NCBI GenBank assembly: GCA_022825135.1
Contig: JAJDYN010000013.1
Location: forward strand, 124,001 to 188,000
Source: Gemmatimonadota bacterium
GTDB lineage: Bacteria; Gemmatimonadota; Gemmatimonadetes; Longimicrobiales; Gaopeijiaceae
Direction of reading: 5' to 3'
DNA: 64,000 nucleotides
Shown here: piece by piece, positions 49,950 through 60,988 of the stretch
How the letters are laid out: the number at the start of each line of letters is the position of its first letter
Position numbering within the stretch: position 1 is the stretch's first letter
Translations under genes and position numbers: made by a program
Notes under the pieces: model-generated
Databases searched by the model: none
What the model was told of the DNA's origin: nothing
The model's input: only the letters and a program-made list of their open reading frames with translations

Positions 49950-50201
49950 ATGAAGGTCAACATGCACGAGGCGAAGTCACAGCTGTCACGACTCGCCAGA
50001 CGGGCGTGGCAGGGAGAGGACATCGTGATCTGCAAGTCGGGACAGCCGTGGCTGCGGCTGATTCCGTATCGGGAACGGCTCGAGCGCCGGCAGCCGGGTG
50101 GGCTGGAGGACCAGATCCGCATCGGCGCCGACTTCGACGCGGACGATGAAGGGATCATCGCGGGCTTCGAGAACTACACGCTCTTTCCCGGCATGGAGTG
50201 A
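49950..50201 (+). CDS. Phd/YefM-family antitoxin
   Basis: An 83-residue antitoxin with the N-terminal Phd/YefM DNA-binding fold (MKVNMHEAKSQLSRLARRA, then GEDIVICKSGQPWLRLIPY). The C-terminal acidic region (about 55-83) should wrap the toxin. It sits three bases before a PIN-domain toxin gene and behind a repeat operator, as expected for an autoregulated operon. Confidence 0.85.
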   Translation: MKVNMHEAKSQLSRLARRAWQGEDIVICKSGQPWLRLIPYRERLERRQPGGLEDQIRIGADFDADDEGIIAGFENYTLFPGME

Positions 50202-50203
50202 CG

Positions 50204-50581
50204 ATGCGCCTGCTCCTGGACACGCATACATTCCTCTGGTGGCTGTCGGACTGGAGACAAATCGACGAGACCACCCGCGACGCCATCGCCGATCCCGGGA
50301 ACGAGGTCTTCGTCAGCGGGGTGTCGGGCTGGGAAATAGCGATCAGGAAGGCCAGCGGCCGGCTCGTCGCGCCGGACGACCTGAGCGCAAGGGTCGAGGA
50401 AAAGCACTTCGAGCACCTGCCGCTGACCTTCGAGCACACGGAGAGGGCGGCGGCCCTGCCGATGCATCATCGCGACCCGTTCGACCGGATGCTCGTCGCG
50501 CAGGCCCAGGCGGAGGGGCTTGTCCTCGTCACAGGAGACGAGCGCATACGCCTGTATGACGTCCAGACGATGGCGGTCTGA
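50204..50581 (+). CDS. PIN-domain toxin (VapC family)
   Basis: A 125-residue PIN ribonuclease. MRLLLDTHTFLWWLSD has the first acidic residue (Asp6), VSGWEIAIRKASGRL the conserved Glu, and RDPFDRMLVAQA plus TGDERI the remaining acidic cluster. Known VapC toxins cut tRNA or rRNA. A GTG at 50198 overlapping the antitoxin stop is an alternative start; ATG 50204 fits the family N-terminus. The module ends four bases before a convergent gene. Confidence 0.85.
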   Translation: MRLLLDTHTFLWWLSDWRQIDETTRDAIADPGNEVFVSGVSGWEIAIRKASGRLVAPDDLSARVEEKHFEHLPLTFEHTERAAALPMHHRDPFDRMLVAQAQAEGLVLVTGDERIRLYDVQTMAV

Positions 50582-51562: not shown

Positions 51563-52793
51563 TCCCGCCTCCGCCACGTCCCCTCCCGAAGAACTCATCG
51601 AATCGGCCATCGAAGATGATCGCGGTGTAGCCGTCTCCCGTACAGTTGGTCGCAGTGCGCAGCATATCGGGGATGCCTCCGGAGAGGGCGATCCAGCTCG
51701 CGATGAACTCGCCCTGAGCCGGGCCATCGAGCCCCAGAATGCTGGCGAAGAGGGTCGCGCTCCAGAGCGCCGTGCCCATTCCGGCGGGCAGCCCCGGGGC
51801 GGCAATGGTGAAGAGGACGACGGCCGGCCAGGCGGCCAGCATCATCATCCAGCTGAGTTCCAGGCCGAAGACGTGACTCACGACGAAGGGCCCGTACGCG
51901 ACGTAGGCGAGCGCGCTGGCGTCGAGGTTCACGACCGCGCCGAACGGCAGCACGAAGTCGGCCACCTCGTCGCGGACGCCGACCCCCTTGGCGTTGGCGA
52001 GGTTGACGGGGAGCGTCGCCAGCGACGAGCACGTCCCCGCGGCGAACACCGCCGTCGGCACGTAGTAGCCGCTCAGGACGGGCCCCACCGGCCGCCGCCC
52101 GACCCTGCGCACCAGCACGAAGGTGTAGAAGGCCCACCAGACGAGCATGAGCGCGCCCGTGTAGGCCGTCATGGTGAGGTAGTGCGAGAGGCCCAGCCTC
52201 GCGCCGAAGCGCACGCCCAGGGTGATGCCGAAGGCGAGGATGAGCGGCAGCATCACGTAGGCGAGCCCGCTCCCCGCGCTCTCGATGGCGTCGGCGATGC
52301 GCTTGAGCCCCCGGTAGGTGGGCTCGTGACGGGCGCCCAGGAGCCCGAGCAGGACGCCCGCGAGAATCGCCAGGAGCGGCCACGAGGCGCCGCCCGCCCC
52401 GAGGCTCTCAAGCATCGTCGCGGCTTCGGTCCACACACCCCGGCCGCCCGTCGTCAGGGGAATGCGGAAGATGGCCGCGGAGGTCACGAGGGCGATGAGC
52501 CCGGCGACCGTCGACGTGAACACGTACCAGAGGACCACCGCTCCCGCGAAGCGCCCGGCCAGCCCGCGCCGCACCAGGGTGGCGATGGCCGGGCTGAGGG
52601 CCGCGAGGATCAGGAGCGGCACGATGGCCACGACCCACGCGATCAGCGTGGCGGTGGCGTCGGCCACGGGCGCGAGGGGAACAGGGAAGACGCCACCCGC
52701 GGCCAGGCCGGCTACCAGGGCCAGGACCGTCCACACGTAGGTTGGGATCCTGCGGGTTGCCGGCAGCCTGGCCTCCTCGGGGTCGGGTGGCAC
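51555..52793 (-). CDS. dicarboxylate/amino acid:cation symporter (DAACS family)
   Basis: A 412-residue membrane carrier of the glutamate transporter fold. Visible are hydrophobic helices from about 15, a GTCSSLATLPVNLANAKGVG segment (the serine-rich HP1-like hairpin) and the later PFGAVVNLDASALAYV and FIASWIALSGGIPDML segments around the substrate and ion site. It should import dicarboxylates or acidic amino acids with Na+ or H+. It is co-oriented and overlapping with the M29-like gene, so import and breakdown of the same kind of peptide or amino acid may be joined; this is inference. Confidence 0.83.
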   Translation of the reverse strand: MPPDPEEARLPATRRIPTYVWTVLALVAGLAAGGVFPVPLAPVADATATLIAWVVAIVPLLILAALSPAIATLVRRGLAGRFAGAVVLWYVFTSTVAGLIALVTSAAIFRIPLTTGGRGVWTEAATMLESLGAGGASWPLLAILAGVLLGLLGARHEPTYRGLKRIADAIESAGSGLAYVMLPLILAFGITLGVRFGARLGLSHYLTMTAYTGALMLVWWAFYTFVLVRRVGRRPVGPVLSGYYVPTAVFAAGTCSSLATLPVNLANAKGVGVRDEVADFVLPFGAVVNLDASALAYVAYGPFVVSHVFGLELSWMMMLAAWPAVVLFTIAAPGLPAGMGTALWSATLFASILGLDGPAQGEFIASWIALSGGIPDMLRTATNCTGDGYTAIIFDGRFDEFFGRGRGGGGNV

Positions 52794-52850
52794 ATATCAT
52801 AGCCAGAGGGAGCGATGTTTGACAGTTTCCGGTGTTCATCCCCGGATTCT

Positions 52851-52908
52851 TTCATTTGGACGGACTATCTTACTTCATTTGGACGAACTCATATCCTTCG
52901 TTTGGACG
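52851..52908 (+). repeat. left iteron array, three TTCRTTTGGACG units with 23-base period
   Basis: The 12-base core occurs at 52851, 52874 and 52897 (TTCATTTGGACG twice, TTCGTTTGGACG once), exactly 23 bases apart and in the same orientation. The third unit ends directly before ATG 52909 of the ATPase gene. Regular spacing of about two helical turns suggests protein binding on one face of the DNA. Confidence 0.85.
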
Positions 52909-54159
52909 ATGATCGACACCACCCTGTATCCCCGTTTCGTCGAGCCGCATCTGCTCGAAGCGCTCGCCGACTCGCCGGCCGTCCTGGTCCACGGGCCCCG
53001 CCAGTGCGGGAAGACCACGTTGGCTCGGATCGTGGGCGCGTCGCGCGGATACAGCTACGTCACTCTTGACGACGACGTGGTGCGCGCCGCCGCCGAGGAG
53101 GATCCGCTGGGGTTCGCCGCCGGCCTCCCCGCGCGCGTCATTCTGGACGAGGTGCAGCGAGCGCCTTCGCTGTTCACCGCCCTCAAGATGGAGATCGACC
53201 GGCGGCGCACCCCCGGACGATTCCTGCTCACCGGCTCCACGCACGTGCTCCTGGTGCCGAAACTCCCGGAGTCGCTGGCTGGTCGGCTTCAGACGCTCCG
53301 GCTCCATCCGCTGGCGCAATGCGAGTTGGACCAGCGTGACTCCGATTTCCTGGACGGCCTCTTTGCGGCCCGGTTCGCGATCGGACACACCGCCCGGCTC
53401 GGCGACCGTCTTCCCGCTCGCATTGTCGCGGGCGGGTACCCGGCGGCGCTCACCCGTCCGCCGGGACGTAGGAGGGCCAACTGGTACAACGATCACGTCG
53501 ATGCCCTGGTGCAGCACGATGTGCGCGACCTGGCGAGCATCCGGAAGCTCGAGATCCTGCCGCGGCTGCTCGCCGGCGCTGCCGGCCAGACCGCGAGGAT
53601 GTTCAACGCGAGTGATCTGGCCGCGCCTTTCGAGGTGAGTCGGCCCACGATACGCGACTACACGACGCTGCTTGAGCGGGTCTTTCTTCTGGAGCGCGTT
53701 CCGGCCTGGCACAGCAACCGCTTGAGGCGGCTCATCAAGCGGCCGAAGCTGCACCTGTGCGATACGGGAATCGCCGCCGCGCTTCTCGGTCTGGACGGTC
53801 CGGCTCTGGCCTACGACCGCAGCCTGTTCGGCCGGCTTCTCGAGACCTTTGTGTTCCAGGAACTTCGGCGGCAGGCCAGCTGGAACGATGCGCGCATGTC
53901 TTTCCACCACTTCCGTGACAAGGACGGGGCGGAGGTCGACATCGTCATCGAGCGTGGCGCTACCGGGGTCGCGGGCGTCGAGGTGAAGGCGTCGGGGACG
54001 GTGCGGGCAGGGGACTTTCGCGGTCTCCGAAAGCTACGCAAGGCGCTGCCCGAACGATTCGCCTGCGGGGTGGTTCTGTACGATGGGGAAGCCACGGTGC
54101 CTTTTGGCGACCGGTTGTTTGCGGTGCCGTTGCGGCGGCTGCTGGGAGAGGCGGATTAG
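52909..54159 (+). CDS. ATP-binding protein, AAA_14 / DUF4143 family
   Basis: A 416-residue ATPase of unknown role. It starts YPRFVEPHLLEALADSPAVL, has Walker A VHGPRQCGKTTLA, Walker B VILDEVQRAP, sensor FLLTGSTHVLL, then the DUF4143 nuclease-like C-terminus with FVFQELRRQASW, FRDKDGAEVDIVIERG and VEVKAS, resembling the D-ExK core of PD-(D/E)xK enzymes. The family is frequent in mobile and accessory regions. No ribosome-binding site precedes ATG 52909; a GGGAG stands before an out-of-frame ATG at 52815. Two iteron arrays flank the gene. Confidence 0.85.
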   Translation: MIDTTLYPRFVEPHLLEALADSPAVLVHGPRQCGKTTLARIVGASRGYSYVTLDDDVVRAAAEEDPLGFAAGLPARVILDEVQRAPSLFTALKMEIDRRRTPGRFLLTGSTHVLLVPKLPESLAGRLQTLRLHPLAQCELDQRDSDFLDGLFAARFAIGHTARLGDRLPARIVAGGYPAALTRPPGRRRANWYNDHVDALVQHDVRDLASIRKLEILPRLLAGAAGQTARMFNASDLAAPFEVSRPTIRDYTTLLERVFLLERVPAWHSNRLRRLIKRPKLHLCDTGIAAALLGLDGPALAYDRSLFGRLLETFVFQELRRQASWNDARMSFHHFRDKDGAEVDIVIERGATGVAGVEVKASGTVRAGDFRGLRKLRKALPERFACGVVLYDGEATVPFGDRLFAVPLRRLLGEAD

Positions 54160-54191
54160 GCTATCGGTCGTGTTGAATGCCGCCTGGTATT

Positions 54192-54249
54192 TTCGTTTGG
54201 ATGGACCGCAACCTTTCATTTGGCCGACGTATTTCTTTCATTTCGTCGA
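54192..54249 (+). repeat. right iteron array, three related units with 23-base period
   Basis: TTCGTTTGGATG (54192), TTCATTTGGCCG (54215) and TTCATTTCGTCG (54238) lie exactly 23 bases apart, in the same orientation as the left array and 32 bases after the ATPase stop. The units match the left core at 9-11 of 12 positions. The two arrays are offset by 1341 bases. Confidence 0.8.
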
Positions 54250-54279
54250 TCCCAGTTGTGTCTTCGATTCCCGCGGCGT

Positions 54280-55620
54280 TCACGCGCACCGTGCCGCAAT
54301 CGCATCGATCGCGGCGTCGATCTCGTCGCGCGTGTTGAAGAAGTGGATCGACAGTCGGAAGTCGCGCGGCTGCCGCACCGGCGAGGCGAGGATGCCGTCG
54401 TCGTCCCGCAGGTGGTTGTAGAGTTCGGTGGCGTCGCACCCCTCCGGGAGTGCGAGCACGAACACGCCCGACCGGTCCGGCCGCGTGCGCGGCGACGACA
54501 CGCCGAGCCCGTCCGTCCGGTCGACCGCTTCGATCGCGTGGTCGACCAGCGACCGGATCCGCTCCTCGATCCTCTCCAGGCCGATGTCCTCCATCCACTC
54601 GACAGCGCGCGCGAAGCCGGCGAAGTCCGCCAGCGCGCGGGTGCCGAATTCGTAGCGGGCGGCGCTGGGGAGCAGCGTGTACGCCCCCTCGTAGTCCATG
54701 GTCGCGTGGCTGTGGGAGCCCGCCCAGCTGAGCTGCACGTCGTCGAGCGCTTCCCGGCGCACGAAGAGCGCGCCCGTCCCCTTGGGTCCCAGCAGCCACT
54801 TGTGGCCGCAGGTGGAATAGCAGTCGCAGCCGAGTGCGCGAAAGTCCGTTGGGACGCAGCCGGGGCCCTGGGCGCCGTCGAGGTGGTAGCGCACCCCCCG
54901 GCCGCGGAGCAGCGCGCCCAGTTCGGCGGATTCGTCGGTGCGCACCGTGCGTCCGTTGTTCCGGGACACGTGGCTGATGCTCACCATGCGCGTGCGGGCG
55001 GAGAGCTGGCCGCGGACCTCGTCGATGAGCCCCGTTCCCGTGCTCAGGTCGATTTCGCGGATCACGATCCGGAACCGGTCCCGCAGGACGTACCAGGGGA
55101 TGACGTTGGCGGGATGTTCCGTGTTGGAAATCACGACCTCGTCCCCCGCCCGCCAGTTCAGGCTCCAGGCGACGATGGAGATGCCCTCGGAGGTCGAGTG
55201 CGTGAGGGCAACCTCATCACCCGCCGCACCGAAGACGCGCCCGAGTTGTGCCCGCAGGTCGGGTTCGATGCGGGCCATGTCCGTCGCGATCCCGGGAGCG
55301 GCCGGGCTCTCGTTCTGGAAGGCGAGGCGTTCCCTGACGTGATCGATGACCGCCTGGGGCGAAGGCCCGATCCCGCCCGTCTGGAAATAGAGGCTGCCGG
55401 TCGAGGCGGGGATCTCGGCACGGGCGCGGGCTACCCAGGCCTCCTGGGGCGCAAAGGAGCCGGCTGTCGCGGGGACCCCGCCATCCGTCGTGCCGATCCC
55501 GGGCTCGGTGCCCGCGCCATCTCTCCCGCCCAGGAGCGCGAACTGCCCTACCGGCACCACCGGAGCAAGGGCCAGCGCGCCCGCCGACCGGCGAAGAAAG
55601 CTGCGTCGGCTGGTGTTCAT
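54280..55620 (-). CDS. Tat-exported class V PLP-dependent aminotransferase-like protein
   Basis: A 446-residue paralogue of the gene at 26361-27632. Its Tat signal is TSRRSFLRRSAGALALAPVV (about 3-22). Conserved are YFQTGGIGPSP, the DGAQGPG Asp and the lysine K274 in CGHKWLLGPKGTGALF, which should hold PLP. It lies between the right iteron array and the Doc toxin gene. Substrate unknown; cysteine desulfurase, epimerase or lyase are all possible within class V. Confidence 0.8.
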   Translation of the reverse strand: MNTSRRSFLRRSAGALALAPVVPVGQFALLGGRDGAGTEPGIGTTDGGVPATAGSFAPQEAWVARARAEIPASTGSLYFQTGGIGPSPQAVIDHVRERLAFQNESPAAPGIATDMARIEPDLRAQLGRVFGAAGDEVALTHSTSEGISIVAWSLNWRAGDEVVISNTEHPANVIPWYVLRDRFRIVIREIDLSTGTGLIDEVRGQLSARTRMVSISHVSRNNGRTVRTDESAELGALLRGRGVRYHLDGAQGPGCVPTDFRALGCDCYSTCGHKWLLGPKGTGALFVRREALDDVQLSWAGSHSHATMDYEGAYTLLPSAARYEFGTRALADFAGFARAVEWMEDIGLERIEERIRSLVDHAIEAVDRTDGLGVSSPRTRPDRSGVFVLALPEGCDATELYNHLRDDDGILASPVRQPRDFRLSIHFFNTRDEIDAAIDAIAARCA

Positions 55621-55645: not shown

Positions 55646-56050
55646 TCAAGTGTCCGCTCGGAGGCGGGTTCGTGGCCGGATCCAGTCCGCGATCGCTTCC
55701 TCGTTCAGCTTCCCGGATGCCACGGCCACCATCATCTCGACGACCTCGCGGTCATCTGCGACGAGGTCGAATCCATTGAGGCCAAGGAAGACAGCCGCGG
55801 CCAGAAACGAAATCCGCTTGTTTCCATCGCGAAACGGATGGCTGGTGCTAATTCCGAAGACATAGTCGGCCGCGAGACGCGGGAAATCCGACCTTTCCTC
55901 GTACGTCCATCTCTGCTTCGCTCGAGCCAGCGCCGATTCCAGCGCGTTCTCGTCCCGGATGCCGAGCAGGCCTCCGTGTTCGCGAAGCTGGTCGAGATGG
56001 ACAGCCTCGAGCACAAGGCGGGGAACCCAGCGTGGTTCCGGCGGTGTCAC
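55646..56050 (-). CDS. doc: Doc/Fic-type toxin (death-on-curing family)
   Basis: A 134-residue Fic-fold toxin with the active-site motif HPFRDGNKRISFLA (family HxFx(D/E)GNKR). LRDENALESAL-type residues precede it. Known Doc phosphorylates EF-Tu and stops translation. GTG start overlaps the antitoxin stop by four bases. Its partner here is an AbrB-like protein, not Phd. Confidence 0.87.
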   Translation of the reverse strand: MTPPEPRWVPRLVLEAVHLDQLREHGGLLGIRDENALESALARAKQRWTYEERSDFPRLAADYVFGISTSHPFRDGNKRISFLAAAVFLGLNGFDLVADDREVVEMMVAVASGKLNEEAIADWIRPRTRLRADT

Positions 56051-56274
56051 TTCGCGAGTTCTCTAAGGGCTCTCCGGTACCGTTTCTGAGCGGCGGCGGC
56101 GATGGCCAGCGCCTCCTCAACGTCTGCGTCGTACGGGCTGAGCAGGATCCCGTCGGGCGTCTCGACGGCAAGCACTTCGTCGCCGGCCGCGAGGCGAAGG
56201 CGTTCCGCCATGTCCTTCGGCAGGGTAGCCCCGACCGACCCACCCATGCGCCGCAGTTTCACACTTCGAACCAT
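56047..56274 (-). CDS. AbrB/MazE-type antitoxin
   Basis: A 75-residue swapped-hairpin DNA-binding protein: VRSVKLRRMGGSVGATLPKD is the AbrB/SpoVT core, followed by a C-terminal helix region (DADVEEALAIAAAAQKRYRRAL) to cover the toxin. ATG 56274 has GGAGG six bases upstream. It precedes and overlaps the Doc toxin gene, so the two form one module with an operator upstream. Confidence 0.82.
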   Translation of the reverse strand: MVRSVKLRRMGGSVGATLPKDMAERLRLAAGDEVLAVETPDGILLSPYDADVEEALAIAAAAQKRYRRALRELAK

Positions 56275-56288
56275 TGAACCTCCTCGTG

Positions 56289-56306
56289 GTAGCACTGCAA
56301 TGCTAC
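56289..56306 (-). promoter_or_regulatory. palindromic operator of the AbrB-Doc module
   Basis: GTAGCA (56289-56294) and TGCTAC (56301-56306) form a perfect inverted repeat with six bases between, ending 15 bases before the antitoxin ATG. The antitoxin probably binds here for autorepression. Confidence 0.5.
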
Positions 56307-56348
56307 TCAGTTCGGAGGAATACGACAAGCGGCAGGTGGCCTAACCCT

Positions 56349-58150: not shown

Positions 58151-60988
58151 TCACCGGCCCCGGAACGCCTCCCACAACCGGTCGTGCTTGTTCGCCCGGG
58201 GGTCCACCTCGAGACCGCCGACCCACATGCGCTCGATCCGGGTCAGCGACTGCAGCGGGGACCCGTCCGTGACGAGCAGATCCGCGCGCTTTCCGGGCTC
58301 GATGCTTCCCATGAGGTCGCCCAGACCCAGCGCCTCCGCCGGGCCCAGGGTCACGGCGCGCAGGGCGGCATCCTCCGGAAGCCCGAAGCCCACCGAGAGC
58401 GCCGCGTGGTAGGGTAGGTTGCGGACGTCGGCGTCGCTGGCCGTCGAGAACGAGACCGCGACGCCCGCTGCGTGCAGGAGCCCGGCGTTGCGGTAGCCCG
58501 AGGTGACGGCCACGTCCCGGTCGGCGGGCGCCTGGAGGGTGCCCGTGAGGATGACGGGGATGCTGCGGGCGGCCAGGCCGGAGGCCACGCGATACGCCTC
58601 CCGTCCGCCCAGAACCACGGCGTCGATGGTCGGAAACGCGTCCAGGAAGACGAACAGGGTGCGGATCTCCCAGGCCGTGTCCACCGAGAAGAAGACCGGC
58701 CTGTCTCCGCCGAGCGCCGGCTGCAGCGCCTCGAGCAGGACGGCCTCTCCGCCCCAGGTGTTGGCCTCGAAGGGCGCGGTCGGGTCGTCGGAGGTCGCCG
58801 GATTCATTCCGTATGCGACGGCGCGCTCGAAGAGGTCGACGAGGCCTTCCATGGCGCTGCTGTCGAGTTCCGGTTCCTCGTCGTCGTCGCCCTCGGGACC
58901 CGCCGGCAGATCGACGATCAGGGACGCCTCCGGAGCCACGGCCACCTTCTCGAAGGTGTCTCCGCCGTTGAGCTGGATGACCGATCCCGTGCCCCGAACC
59001 ACACCGCCGCCCTGGGCGGTCTGAACCGTGGTGATGCCGTTGGCGCGCGCCACGTTCAGGCTGGGGTAGTAGGGGTTCACCGCCGCGAGCGCCCGGATGT
59101 GCGGGTTGTAGTCCCCGATCTCGGCGATGTCGGTAGCCTGGCCGACGGCGCCGAACTCGAGCAGTCCGAGCGTCGTGAACGGGTCGGTCATGCCCGGGTA
59201 GACGTGTCGTCCTGCCACCTCTACGCGAGCGGCATCGGCGGGAATCGCGACCTGCGACCGGGTGCCCACCGCCTCGATGGTCCCGCCCCGGATGAGCACC
59301 ACCCCGTCCTGGATCGTCCCGCCCGCCACCGTGTGCACCGTCCCGCCCACGAGAGCCGTGGCGGCTTCCTGCGCGGCTGCCGGTCGCGGGGGCGGGTCTC
59401 CGTCCATCCCGTTTGCACGCGGCGTCCCGGGCGCCATCCCGGTTCCGGAGTCGCCGGAGGTCGAAGCCCGCGGCGCGCCCGCGTCGCCGGAATCCGGGCC
59501 GTCGCCCGGAGTTGAGGTCCGGGGCGTTGCCGGGGCGGCGACGACATCCGTGACCGCTCGCACGGGCTCGCCCCGCGTCCCCTCCTCGTCATCCACATCG
59601 TAGTAGACGATTCCGTCCACGATCGTCTTCTCGACGCGGCTGAACGAATCGAAGGGCGATCCGTCGAGCAGCACGACATCGCCTTCCTTGCCTTCCTCCA
59701 GGCTTCCGACCCGGTCGTCCAGATACATCATCCTTGCCGGAAACAGCGTCAGCATCTGCAGCGCTTCGAGCTCGCTCACGCCTCCGTACTTCACCGGCTT
59801 CACGATCTCGCGGTGCATGAACGGCTGGAGCGAGGGGATGTCGGAGTTGATGGCGGTGAGCACTCCGTGCTGGTGCATGATGGCGGCGTTGTGGGGGATC
59901 GACTCGAACGCCTCGAGCTTGTACTGCCACCAGTCGGAGAACGTCGAACCGGCGGCCCCGTGCTCGGCCATCTCGGTCGCGACCCGGTATCCCTCCATGA
60001 CGTGCGTGAACACGTCGATCCGGAACCCGAACCGCTCCGCGAGGCGGATGAGCATCAGGATTTCGTCCGCGCGGTAGGAGTGCGCGTGGATGCGGATGCG
60101 TCCCTCCATGATGTCGACCAGCGCCTCGAGCCGGAGATCCCGGCGCGGGGGAACGGGAAAGGCGCCCGGGTTCGCGCGGAACTCGTCCCACTCGGCCCGG
60201 TACGCCTGCGCGGCCGTGAACGCCTCGACGTAGATCGCCTCGACGCCCGCGCGACTCATCGGGAACCGGGAATTGGCGCTTGGCGGAGCAGCCTTTCGGG
60301 TCACGTTTTCTCCGAGCGCGAACTTCACGAACCTCGGGGCGCCGGGGATCAGCAGCTGCTCCGTGGCGTCCATCCCCCAGCGCATCTTGATCACGGCGCT
60401 CTGGCCGCCGATCGGGTTCGAGCTGCCGTGCATGATGCGGGCGGTCGTCACCCCGCCCGACAGGGCCCGGTAGATGCCGAAGTCCTCGGTCGTGAGCGCG
60501 TCCAGTACCCGCACCTCGGGGACGATGGGGGCGGTACCCTCGTTGCCGGCGATGAGCGCCGTGTGAGAGTGCTCGTCGACGATGCCCGGCATCGCGGTGA
60601 GGCCCGTCCCGTCGATGACGCGCACGCCGTCGGGGGCCGTGAGGCCGGCTCCGATCTGCTCGATGATCCCGTCCCGGATCAGAATCGAGACGCCCTCGAG
60701 CACCGGGCCGGCCGCCGTGTGCAGGGCCTCGAGACCCTGCACGAACAGGTCGCCGGTGGGGTGGCTGCCCGCGTCGGCAGGGAGCTGCACGTCCCACTCC
60801 TGCGCCGCGGCCGGGGTCCCCGGGAAGCAGCTGATCGCCGCAATCGCCAGACCCGCGCGCAGCATATTTCGGATAGTCATCGTGTGCCGGATACTCATGG
60901 TGTGCGGGATAGTCGTCGTGTGCCGGATATTCATAGTGTGCCGGATATTCATAGTGTGCCGCATAATCATAGTGTGCCGCATATTCAT
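58151..60988 (-). CDS. large exported amidohydrolase-like protein, two domains, repeat-coded N-terminus
   Basis: The 945-residue protein begins with about seven hexapeptide repeats of the form M-x-(I/M)-R-H-T, then a signal peptide (MLRAGLAIAAISCFPGTPAAAQ). Two amidohydrolase-like halves follow. The first (about 75-480) has the metal motif HSH in GIVDEHSHTALIA; the second (about 560-940) has PGMTDPFTTLG where HxH is expected, and so lacks it. Such double proteins are common in Gemmatimonadota and Bacteroidota. GGGAGG stands eight bases upstream of ATG 60988, so translation does begin at the repeats. The start overlaps the previous gene by four bases. Confidence 0.8.
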   Translation of the reverse strand: MNMRHTMIMRHTMNIRHTMNIRHTTTIPHTMSIRHTMTIRNMLRAGLAIAAISCFPGTPAAAQEWDVQLPADAGSHPTGDLFVQGLEALHTAAGPVLEGVSILIRDGIIEQIGAGLTAPDGVRVIDGTGLTAMPGIVDEHSHTALIAGNEGTAPIVPEVRVLDALTTEDFGIYRALSGGVTTARIMHGSSNPIGGQSAVIKMRWGMDATEQLLIPGAPRFVKFALGENVTRKAAPPSANSRFPMSRAGVEAIYVEAFTAAQAYRAEWDEFRANPGAFPVPPRRDLRLEALVDIMEGRIRIHAHSYRADEILMLIRLAERFGFRIDVFTHVMEGYRVATEMAEHGAAGSTFSDWWQYKLEAFESIPHNAAIMHQHGVLTAINSDIPSLQPFMHREIVKPVKYGGVSELEALQMLTLFPARMMYLDDRVGSLEEGKEGDVVLLDGSPFDSFSRVEKTIVDGIVYYDVDDEEGTRGEPVRAVTDVVAAPATPRTSTPGDGPDSGDAGAPRASTSGDSGTGMAPGTPRANGMDGDPPPRPAAAQEAATALVGGTVHTVAGGTIQDGVVLIRGGTIEAVGTRSQVAIPADAARVEVAGRHVYPGMTDPFTTLGLLEFGAVGQATDIAEIGDYNPHIRALAAVNPYYPSLNVARANGITTVQTAQGGGVVRGTGSVIQLNGGDTFEKVAVAPEASLIVDLPAGPEGDDDEEPELDSSAMEGLVDLFERAVAYGMNPATSDDPTAPFEANTWGGEAVLLEALQPALGGDRPVFFSVDTAWEIRTLFVFLDAFPTIDAVVLGGREAYRVASGLAARSIPVILTGTLQAPADRDVAVTSGYRNAGLLHAAGVAVSFSTASDADVRNLPYHAALSVGFGLPEDAALRAVTLGPAEALGLGDLMGSIEPGKRADLLVTDGSPLQSLTRIERMWVGGLEVDPRANKHDRLWEAFRGR
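60878..60988 (-). repeat. 18-base minisatellite, six copies, inside the 5' end of the amidohydrolase gene
   Basis: The motif GTGTGC recurs at 60882, 60900, 60918, 60936, 60954 and 60972 (+ strand), exactly 18 bases apart, in units such as ATAGTGTGCCGGATATTC. On the coding strand each unit encodes six residues such as MNIRHT. The period is a multiple of three, so copy-number changes would keep the frame. Confidence 0.9.

Follow-up and report, generated by a model that had tools for sequence, protein, structure and literature searches.

The AAA_14-DUF4143 ATPase gene in the window (the whole 64-kb stretch of DNA analysed here) is accompanied by six 13-bp repeat units in one orientation, three before the gene and three after it. 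Comparison with relatives makes it near certain that the arrays belong to the ATPase gene, and the upstream array is probably an operator at which the encoded protein would bind and repress its own gene.

Repeat units at the window locus

The three upstream units occupy positions 52850..52862 (TTTCATTTGGACG), 52873..52885 (CTTCATTTGGACG) and 52896..52908 (CTTCGTTTGGACG) of the plus strand, and the last of them abuts the ATG directly. The downstream units were located on the same strand at 54191..54203 (TTTCGTTTGGATG), 54214..54226 (TTTCATTTGGCCG) and 54236..54248 (TTTCATTTCGTCG), the third following 22 bp after the second. The spacing is 23 and 23 bp upstream and 23 and 22 bp downstream, with spacers of 9–10 bp, and a repeat search grouped five of the six copies at spacings of 23, 1318, 23 and 22. 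All six units given in the preliminary description were present, and their common orientation was borne out; the description placed the start of the third downstream unit one base too late, and for this reason the period of exactly 23 claimed for both arrays holds upstream only, the last downstream spacing being 22.

A weight matrix was built from 100 seed units found upstream of 46 relatives outside Gemmatimonadota (phylum by record title). When both strands of the 64 kb were scanned with this matrix, the top six sites were the six units, with scores of 22.3 to 11.7, and the next score was 10.5. Downstream unit 2 was the best site in the window and upstream unit 1 the second best. The earlier judgement that the arrays are unlikely to have arisen by chance is supported, since a matrix derived from relatives alone places the six units on top. 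Tandem Repeats Finder (minimum score 30) detected the upstream array with a score of 74 and did not detect the downstream array. The exact 12-mer TTCRTTTGGACG occurred at three sites in the genome, all in the upstream array; with up to one mismatch it occurred at 16 sites, compared to eight for a reversed control pattern, and the two arrays account for 5 of the 16. None of the 24 inverted pairs found in 52001–55500 pairs the two arrays, as terminal inverted repeats of a transposon or insertion sequence would.

Two toxin-antitoxin-like pairs flank the area of the arrays and the gene. One consists of a PIN-domain gene after a small gene without a Pfam match (49950–50581), and the other of a MazE-like gene and its Fic/DOC-domain partner (55646–56328). 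Elsewhere in the window, an 18-bp tandem repeat of 6.6 copies was observed at 60870–60988, at the start of a long minus-strand ORF with repeated RHT-like residues; the true start codon of this ORF may lie further downstream.

Domains of the ATPase protein

The ATPase gene (52909..54159, plus strand, with the stop codon ending at 54159) encodes a protein of 416 aa. According to Pfam analysis, the protein contains AAA_14 (PF13173; residues 22–139; 80.7 bits against a cut-off of 27) and DUF4143 (PF13635; residues 203–362; 156.6 bits against a cut-off of 28.1). The PADLOC PDC-S01 model PDLC04790 matched residues 5–413 (E value, 7.5e-161). With both Pfam cut-offs passed and the PADLOC model matched along nearly all of the protein, the protein is a member of the AAA_14-DUF4143 family; PDC-S01 itself is a candidate defence system, predicted from sequence.

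The AAA domain (52972..53325, plus strand; residues 22–139) carries Walker A at G29..K35 and Walker B at D80 and E81. A winged helix-turn-helix (53554..53757, plus strand; residues 216–283) was predicted at the start of DUF4143, with helices at residues 216–226, 234–241 and 245–257 and a two-strand wing carrying several Arg/Lys. In the AlphaFold model, which has a mean pLDDT of 94.8, the block containing this fold has a pLDDT of 86–98. It is followed by a PD-(D/E)XK-like nuclease core (53818..54045, plus strand; residues 304–379), modelled as helix 304–323 and strands 330–337, 342–349 and 353–360, in which E312, E342, D344, E358 and K360 are invariant or nearly so among 76 aligned sequences. 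An alpha-beta-beta-beta core with an acidic residue and ExK is the PD-(D/E)XK arrangement, and this part of the protein is a predicted nuclease; the superfamily assignment is that given in the accessible part of PMC12988326. Both the Walker and the nuclease residues are intact in the window protein. The solved folds closest to the model are the archaeal ATPases 2qen and 2fna, followed by NLR and CED-4, and the model is also near the Avs5 ATPases. A sequence search of solved structures returned 58 sequences up to E 1, each aligned at the AAA part only, and Pfam analysis of the window protein revealed no homology to plasmid initiators.

Conservation of the arrays with the gene

When genome contigs were scanned for relatives of the window gene, at least 71 loci were obtained. 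The window cluster comprised 70 genes at 50% identity, 69 of them with a usable start and some loci present twice, and at least two units were found upstream of 66 of the 69. Successive units were 22 or 23 bp apart in 131 of 135 intervals, and the start of the last detected unit lay 13–15 bp upstream of the ATG in 48 of 65 genes and 35–38 bp upstream of it in the other 17. Groups named in the record titles of the relatives include Gemmatimonadota, Proteobacteria, Nitrospirae, Omnitrophota, Planctomycetota, Acidobacteria, Fibrobacteria, Bipolaricaulota, Fermentibacteria, Bacteroidetes, Lentisphaeria, Myxococcota and Caldilineaceae, and two named Acidithiobacillus strains (L066 and L074) are among the relatives. 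Two records titled Gammaproteobacteria (L033 and L073) carry the window locus with a protein 92% identical; these titles are probably wrong.

The upstream DNA of 47 of 48 members outside Gemmatimonadota (second copies of loci left out) was closer to that of Gemmatimonadota of the same cluster than to that of Gemmatimonadota of other clusters. An earlier ranking of upstream similarity, which included second copies of loci, placed 36 of 63 window-cluster rows in the top 10%. Strict non-redundancy at 70% left seven window-type genes; all seven had an offset of 22, 23 or 44–46, and six scored above all 40 shuffles. The upstream array lies directly before the gene's own start and is conserved with the gene, as is expected of an operator.

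A strict two-unit pattern, which does not detect degenerate arrays like the one in G008, matched in 10 of 59 genomes (own genome included), at one locus per genome, and its reversed control matched in none of the 59. The match was at the window locus in nine of the ten genomes, two of these lacking the gene. The single locus per genome, together with the empty reversed control, therefore favours a dedicated binder. The preliminary description had tied the sites to the gene family and named two observations that would speak against such a tie. A lack of arrays beside close homologues did not appear, and arrays common at unrelated loci were absent from the 59 genomes, the cases of arrays without the gene being one orphan together with those alleles of the window locus, described below, that lack the gene. 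The orphan, a two-unit array in another genus of the family with no DUF4143 gene in the 3 kb examined (L209, G027:C8:66978), is perhaps the scar of a lost gene.

Phages were considered as a reservoir of the arrays and rejected. Seventeen viral contigs matched the two-unit pattern, and in the stretches examined a DUF4143 gene was present in L216 only. L210, L212, L215, L217 and L218 have one recurrent sequence in common, and several of the matches look low-complexity. In L216, a window-type array of two pattern units, with a third seen by eye, precedes the DUF4143 gene.

Promoter-like features of the upstream array

An A stands at the third position in 45 of 65 proximal units compared to 13 of 131 other units, giving TACAAT, TACACT or TACGAT in the proximal unit. 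The place of upstream unit 3 is often occupied by TTACAATTGGCCG in relatives, which would be -10-like. One unit further upstream, at a distance of 23 bp (6 + 17), corresponds to the distance between -35 and -10 hexamers, and a -35-like hexamer occurs in relatives at the place of upstream unit 2, suggesting a promoter role. In the window subfamily, the -10-like hexamer ends 6–8 bp before the ATG; transcription would therefore start at or beside the A of the ATG, and the mRNA would thus be leaderless. Judging from position, the units in relatives probably double as the -35/-10 elements of a leaderless promoter. Upstream unit 3, the proximal unit of the window itself, is degenerate and makes a poor -10.

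Downstream array and gene-less alleles

The two arrays are not equivalent. The upstream array is widely conserved, and the downstream array was found in the window's Gemmatimonadota group only: among 65 genes, at least two downstream units were present in 18 (some being one locus fetched twice), one unit in a single gene, and none in 46. All genes with downstream arrays are from Gemmatimonadota or from genomes placed in the window's genus, and a comparison of their flanks put them at several genomic places.

The neighbouring aminotransferase was present in each of the 11 genomes that were examined from the genus, and the ATPase gene stood beside it in seven. In the gene-less genomes G002, G005, G006 and G008 (completeness of 87, 92, 67 and 99%, respectively), the best full-length relatives were 39–46% identical, and a partial relative in G008 was 49% identical. 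By eye, the gene-less locus keeps three units in G005 (L186), one to two in G008 (L193) and three plus three in G002 (L194), directly beside the start of the symporter gene; no units were seen by eye at the gene-less locus of G006. The flank DNA of G005 was closest to that of gene-bearing G009 (93%), that of G002 to gene-bearing G003 and G010 (95%), and that of G008 to gene-bearing G007 (91%), in a flank tree that mixes in non-homologous flank and serves for nearest neighbours by identity only.

A segment upstream of the symporter (ATCATAGC and its neighbours) is present in the gene-bearing alleles and in array-less G006. Because this segment is missing in G002, G005 and G008, these alleles are most simply read as deletion derivatives, with the right edge at the first downstream unit. 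The left junction is common to G002 and G008, so at least two events are likely, and not necessarily three. The earlier suggestion that the gene had inserted into one older array was not supported, as the gene-less alleles that keep units lack the shared flank segment and look like deletions.

Repeats of other subfamilies and plasmid relatives

The window's own genome has 15 DUF4143 matches, 14 of them over the cut-off, and G034 has 34. Three DUF4143 genes of G034 (L132, L140 and L156) lie close together at about 1483000–1487000 of G034:C1. A direct-repeat score of at least 9 was reached by 97 of 159 DUF4143 genes with enough upstream DNA and by 42 of 150 controls, taken from DNA upstream of other ORFs; the offset was 22 or 23 in 67 of these 97 genes and in 5 of the 42 controls. 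Outside the window cluster, 24 of 90 genes had inverted repeats above 20 shuffles, compared to 6 of 100 controls. A further 35 genes, each with fewer than two matrix matches, were taken from genomes assigned to other phyla, and 22 of them had a direct or inverted repeat that exceeded 20 shuffles. Of these 35, at least three had been in the first set already (window-type L231 and L241, and L262). Among 92 genes with less than 55% identity to the window protein (non-redundant at 70%), a direct or inverted repeat beat 40 shuffles in 41, compared to 12 of 120 controls (Fisher p = 9e-9), and the other 51 had no such repeat.

Examples include TTTCTCGTAATAA, the array of another DUF4143 subfamily, the direct repeat TTTCTCGTATTA at 22 bp near the start of L106, TTGCAAA-type direct repeats at 23 or 46 bp in a cluster of 18 genes (six among those listed), and inverted repeats near the start of L104, L109, L111 and L112 (own genome) and L121 (G034). 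These data suggest that other DUF4143 subfamilies often own a site, direct or inverted, in the corresponding position. Tracking of the operator across phyla outside the window cluster was weak, with 7 of 35 genes in the top 10% where 3.5 were expected (L085 and L262 in this list are the same region).

By tblastn, relatives of the window protein were found in 396 plasmid records. Twelve regions among the 20 matches listed were analysed, all from Alphaproteobacteria and with 46–49% identity. In 10 of the 12, direct repeats scored best at an offset of 22 or 44 (a chance of about 2 in 47 per region; binomial p = 1e-12), and in five of the 12 no more than 1 of 100 shuffles scored as high. An annotated plasmid relative is that of Tateyamaria omphalii (L290, WP_076630584.1). 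A clear four-unit array was observed in Caulobacter sp. FWC26 plasmid p2 (L289) before a two-piece DUF4143 match with no annotated gene, where the DUF4143 gene may be interrupted.

In plasmid and other relatives, the unit sequence drifts along with the protein. When genes were grouped by their helix string, with units read by eye and no row obtained for L289, helix SSVTAQKY went with TTTAAAATGGACG-like units (three genes), SHKTGQRY with TTCCAATTA-like units (three genes), NHVTTQKY-like helices with TTTCAWTTGGYCR-like units (four genes) and NRLTAGKY-like helices with ATAACGATTGGACG (three genes). Helix DDKTARRY went with TTCCG-type units in two genes, one from a Rhizobium plasmid and one from Gemmatimonadota. 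L014 and L024, which belong to the same 50%-identity cluster, have the helix QSTLKRY instead of SRPTIRDY; they lack window-type units, and another repeat, GGTTGATTTTCA, was seen by eye. Partial Mantel analysis of 53 genes gave 0.096 for the helix (11 of 1000 permutations as high), 0.049 for AAA (125 of 1000) and 0.164 for the nuclease segment (0 of 1000), which favours the C-terminal part and does not single out the recognition helix.

Proposed mechanism and alternatives

We propose that the upstream array is the operator of the ATPase gene itself. Units 22–23 bp apart would lie about two helical turns apart on the same helix face, and the AAA_14-DUF4143 protein would read them, most likely via the winged helix that the model places at the start of DUF4143, and oligomerise along the array in an ATP-dependent manner. 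In the window subfamily, two neighbouring units would also form the promoter, with TTTCAA/TTGCAA as -35 and the TACAAT of the last unit as -10, 17–18 bp apart; bound protein would cover this region and repress the gene, and the nuclease may have a stand-by, defence-like role. Self-binding through the winged helix with repression is the likeliest mechanism and, in our judgement, a probable one, in which we infer the binder, the repression and the role of ATP. Of the options raised earlier, binding sites for the ATPase itself appears the best supported. Plain promoter autorepression has no place for the downstream array or for the units kept after gene loss, which argues against it. A more far-reaching and rather unlikely reading is that, across the family, the ATPase-nuclease assembles on promoter addresses private to each subfamily, which act as both switch and leash for a resting STAND-like nuclease, with duplicated addresses around the gene, such as those of the window's Gemmatimonadota group, biasing its loss by deletion and orphan arrays as scars.

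The closest solved folds include STAND proteins, in which the winged helix is regulatory and is not known to read DNA; this counts against self-binding. It would suit a different regulator, encoded by the host, that recognises the array and governs the ATPase gene, and HTH genes do adjoin some plasmid copies. However, HTH neighbours are listed for just three of the 12 plasmid regions (two of the 12 being unannotated), the unit follows the gene through many phyla and, in drifted form, onto plasmids, the two-unit pattern occurs at one locus per genome where found, and different repeats accompany the other DUF4143 genes of the same genome. A host regulator in place of the ATPase is therefore unlikely. 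It is a less probable idea still that the ATPase-nuclease moves or excises its own gene at the arrays as a small mobile unit, with the promoter position secondary. The intact PD-(D/E)XK residues, the relatives in plasmid records, the several genomic places of the gene between arrays in Gemmatimonadota, and the gene-less alleles with units kept and a deletion edge at the first downstream unit would all fit. Nevertheless, none of the 65 genes that lies outside the window's Gemmatimonadota group has two or more downstream units, the gene-less alleles resemble deletions rather than clean excisions, and several other subfamilies have inverted repeats near the start codon in the upstream regions scanned.

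The array might also be a stand-by platform on which a defence nuclease is parked inactive and limits itself, to be freed or mis-targeted on infection, with repression as a by-product. The PADLOC match and the fold near NLR, CED-4 and Avs5 ATPases are in line with this, as is the accessible part of PMC12988326, where PDC-S01, an ATPase fused to PD-(D/E)XK, ranks as the fourth most common defence across prokaryotes (9,986 archaeal and 29,494 bacterial systems). PDC-S01 has candidate defence status only, though, and the sequence gives no sign of inhibition on the array, so we consider this highly improbable. The regularity of the direct repeats could point to an RNA element or a CRISPR-like array. 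In CRISPR arrays, the repeats measure about 23 nt or more and are separated by longer, unique spacers, whereas the units here are 13 bp with 9–10-bp spacers, and the last upstream unit ends at the start codon. The RNA element was dropped, as Rfam gave no match up to E 1 in 52600–54400, and action of the repeats as RNA or as a CRISPR-like array is extremely improbable. The balance remains with self-binding and repression by the ATPase.

The AAA_14-DUF4143 proteins form a very common yet little-studied ATPase-nuclease family, for which the array is a first DNA handle. With a DNA site that is short and specific to the gene, the family can be tested at once as a self-regulating DNA binder, and the differing sites of the subfamilies provide built-in specificity controls. 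The site further allows the silencing of the gene to be considered apart from the action of the nuclease once let loose.

Comparison with known systems

Plasmid iterons, such as those of RepE and pSC101 RepA, are direct repeats about two helical turns apart, and related initiators of this type use both direct and inverted sites and autorepress. In contrast, the window protein is an AAA/STAND-type ATPase with a nuclease domain and without initiator homology, and its sites lie directly before the gene's own start. STAND/NLR ATPases such as CED-4, plant NLRs and Avs5 are signal-sensing oligomers. The archaeal ATPases SSO1545 (2fna) and PABY2304 (2qen) share 17–18% identity with the window protein.

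A literature search, subscription papers and preprints apart, found no account of DUF4143-linked repeats. The accessible parts of PMC12988326 and PMC13356809 describe the abundance and origin of PDC-S01 rather than its sites, and in that of PMC4406477 DUF4143 appears as a table entry for the Thermus plasmid gene TT_P0211. The kind of operator proposed here is known; its owner and family-wide spread are without description in the literature searched. According to the accessible part of PMC12255303, RptR is the repressor of a restriction-modification/DarTG2 defence island, and its promoter contains three direct repeats, two of which overlap a -10 box. The likeness is that a regulator from the same locus binds repeats, represses its own promoter and is conserved with its site. 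RptR differs in being a small dedicated homodimer regulator that uses 9-bp imperfect repeats with a 6-bp palindrome (PMC12255303, accessible part), whereas at the window locus the likely binder would be the ATPase-nuclease itself, with a spacing of 22/23 bp. RptR is the nearest described logic found for the arrays of the ATPase gene.
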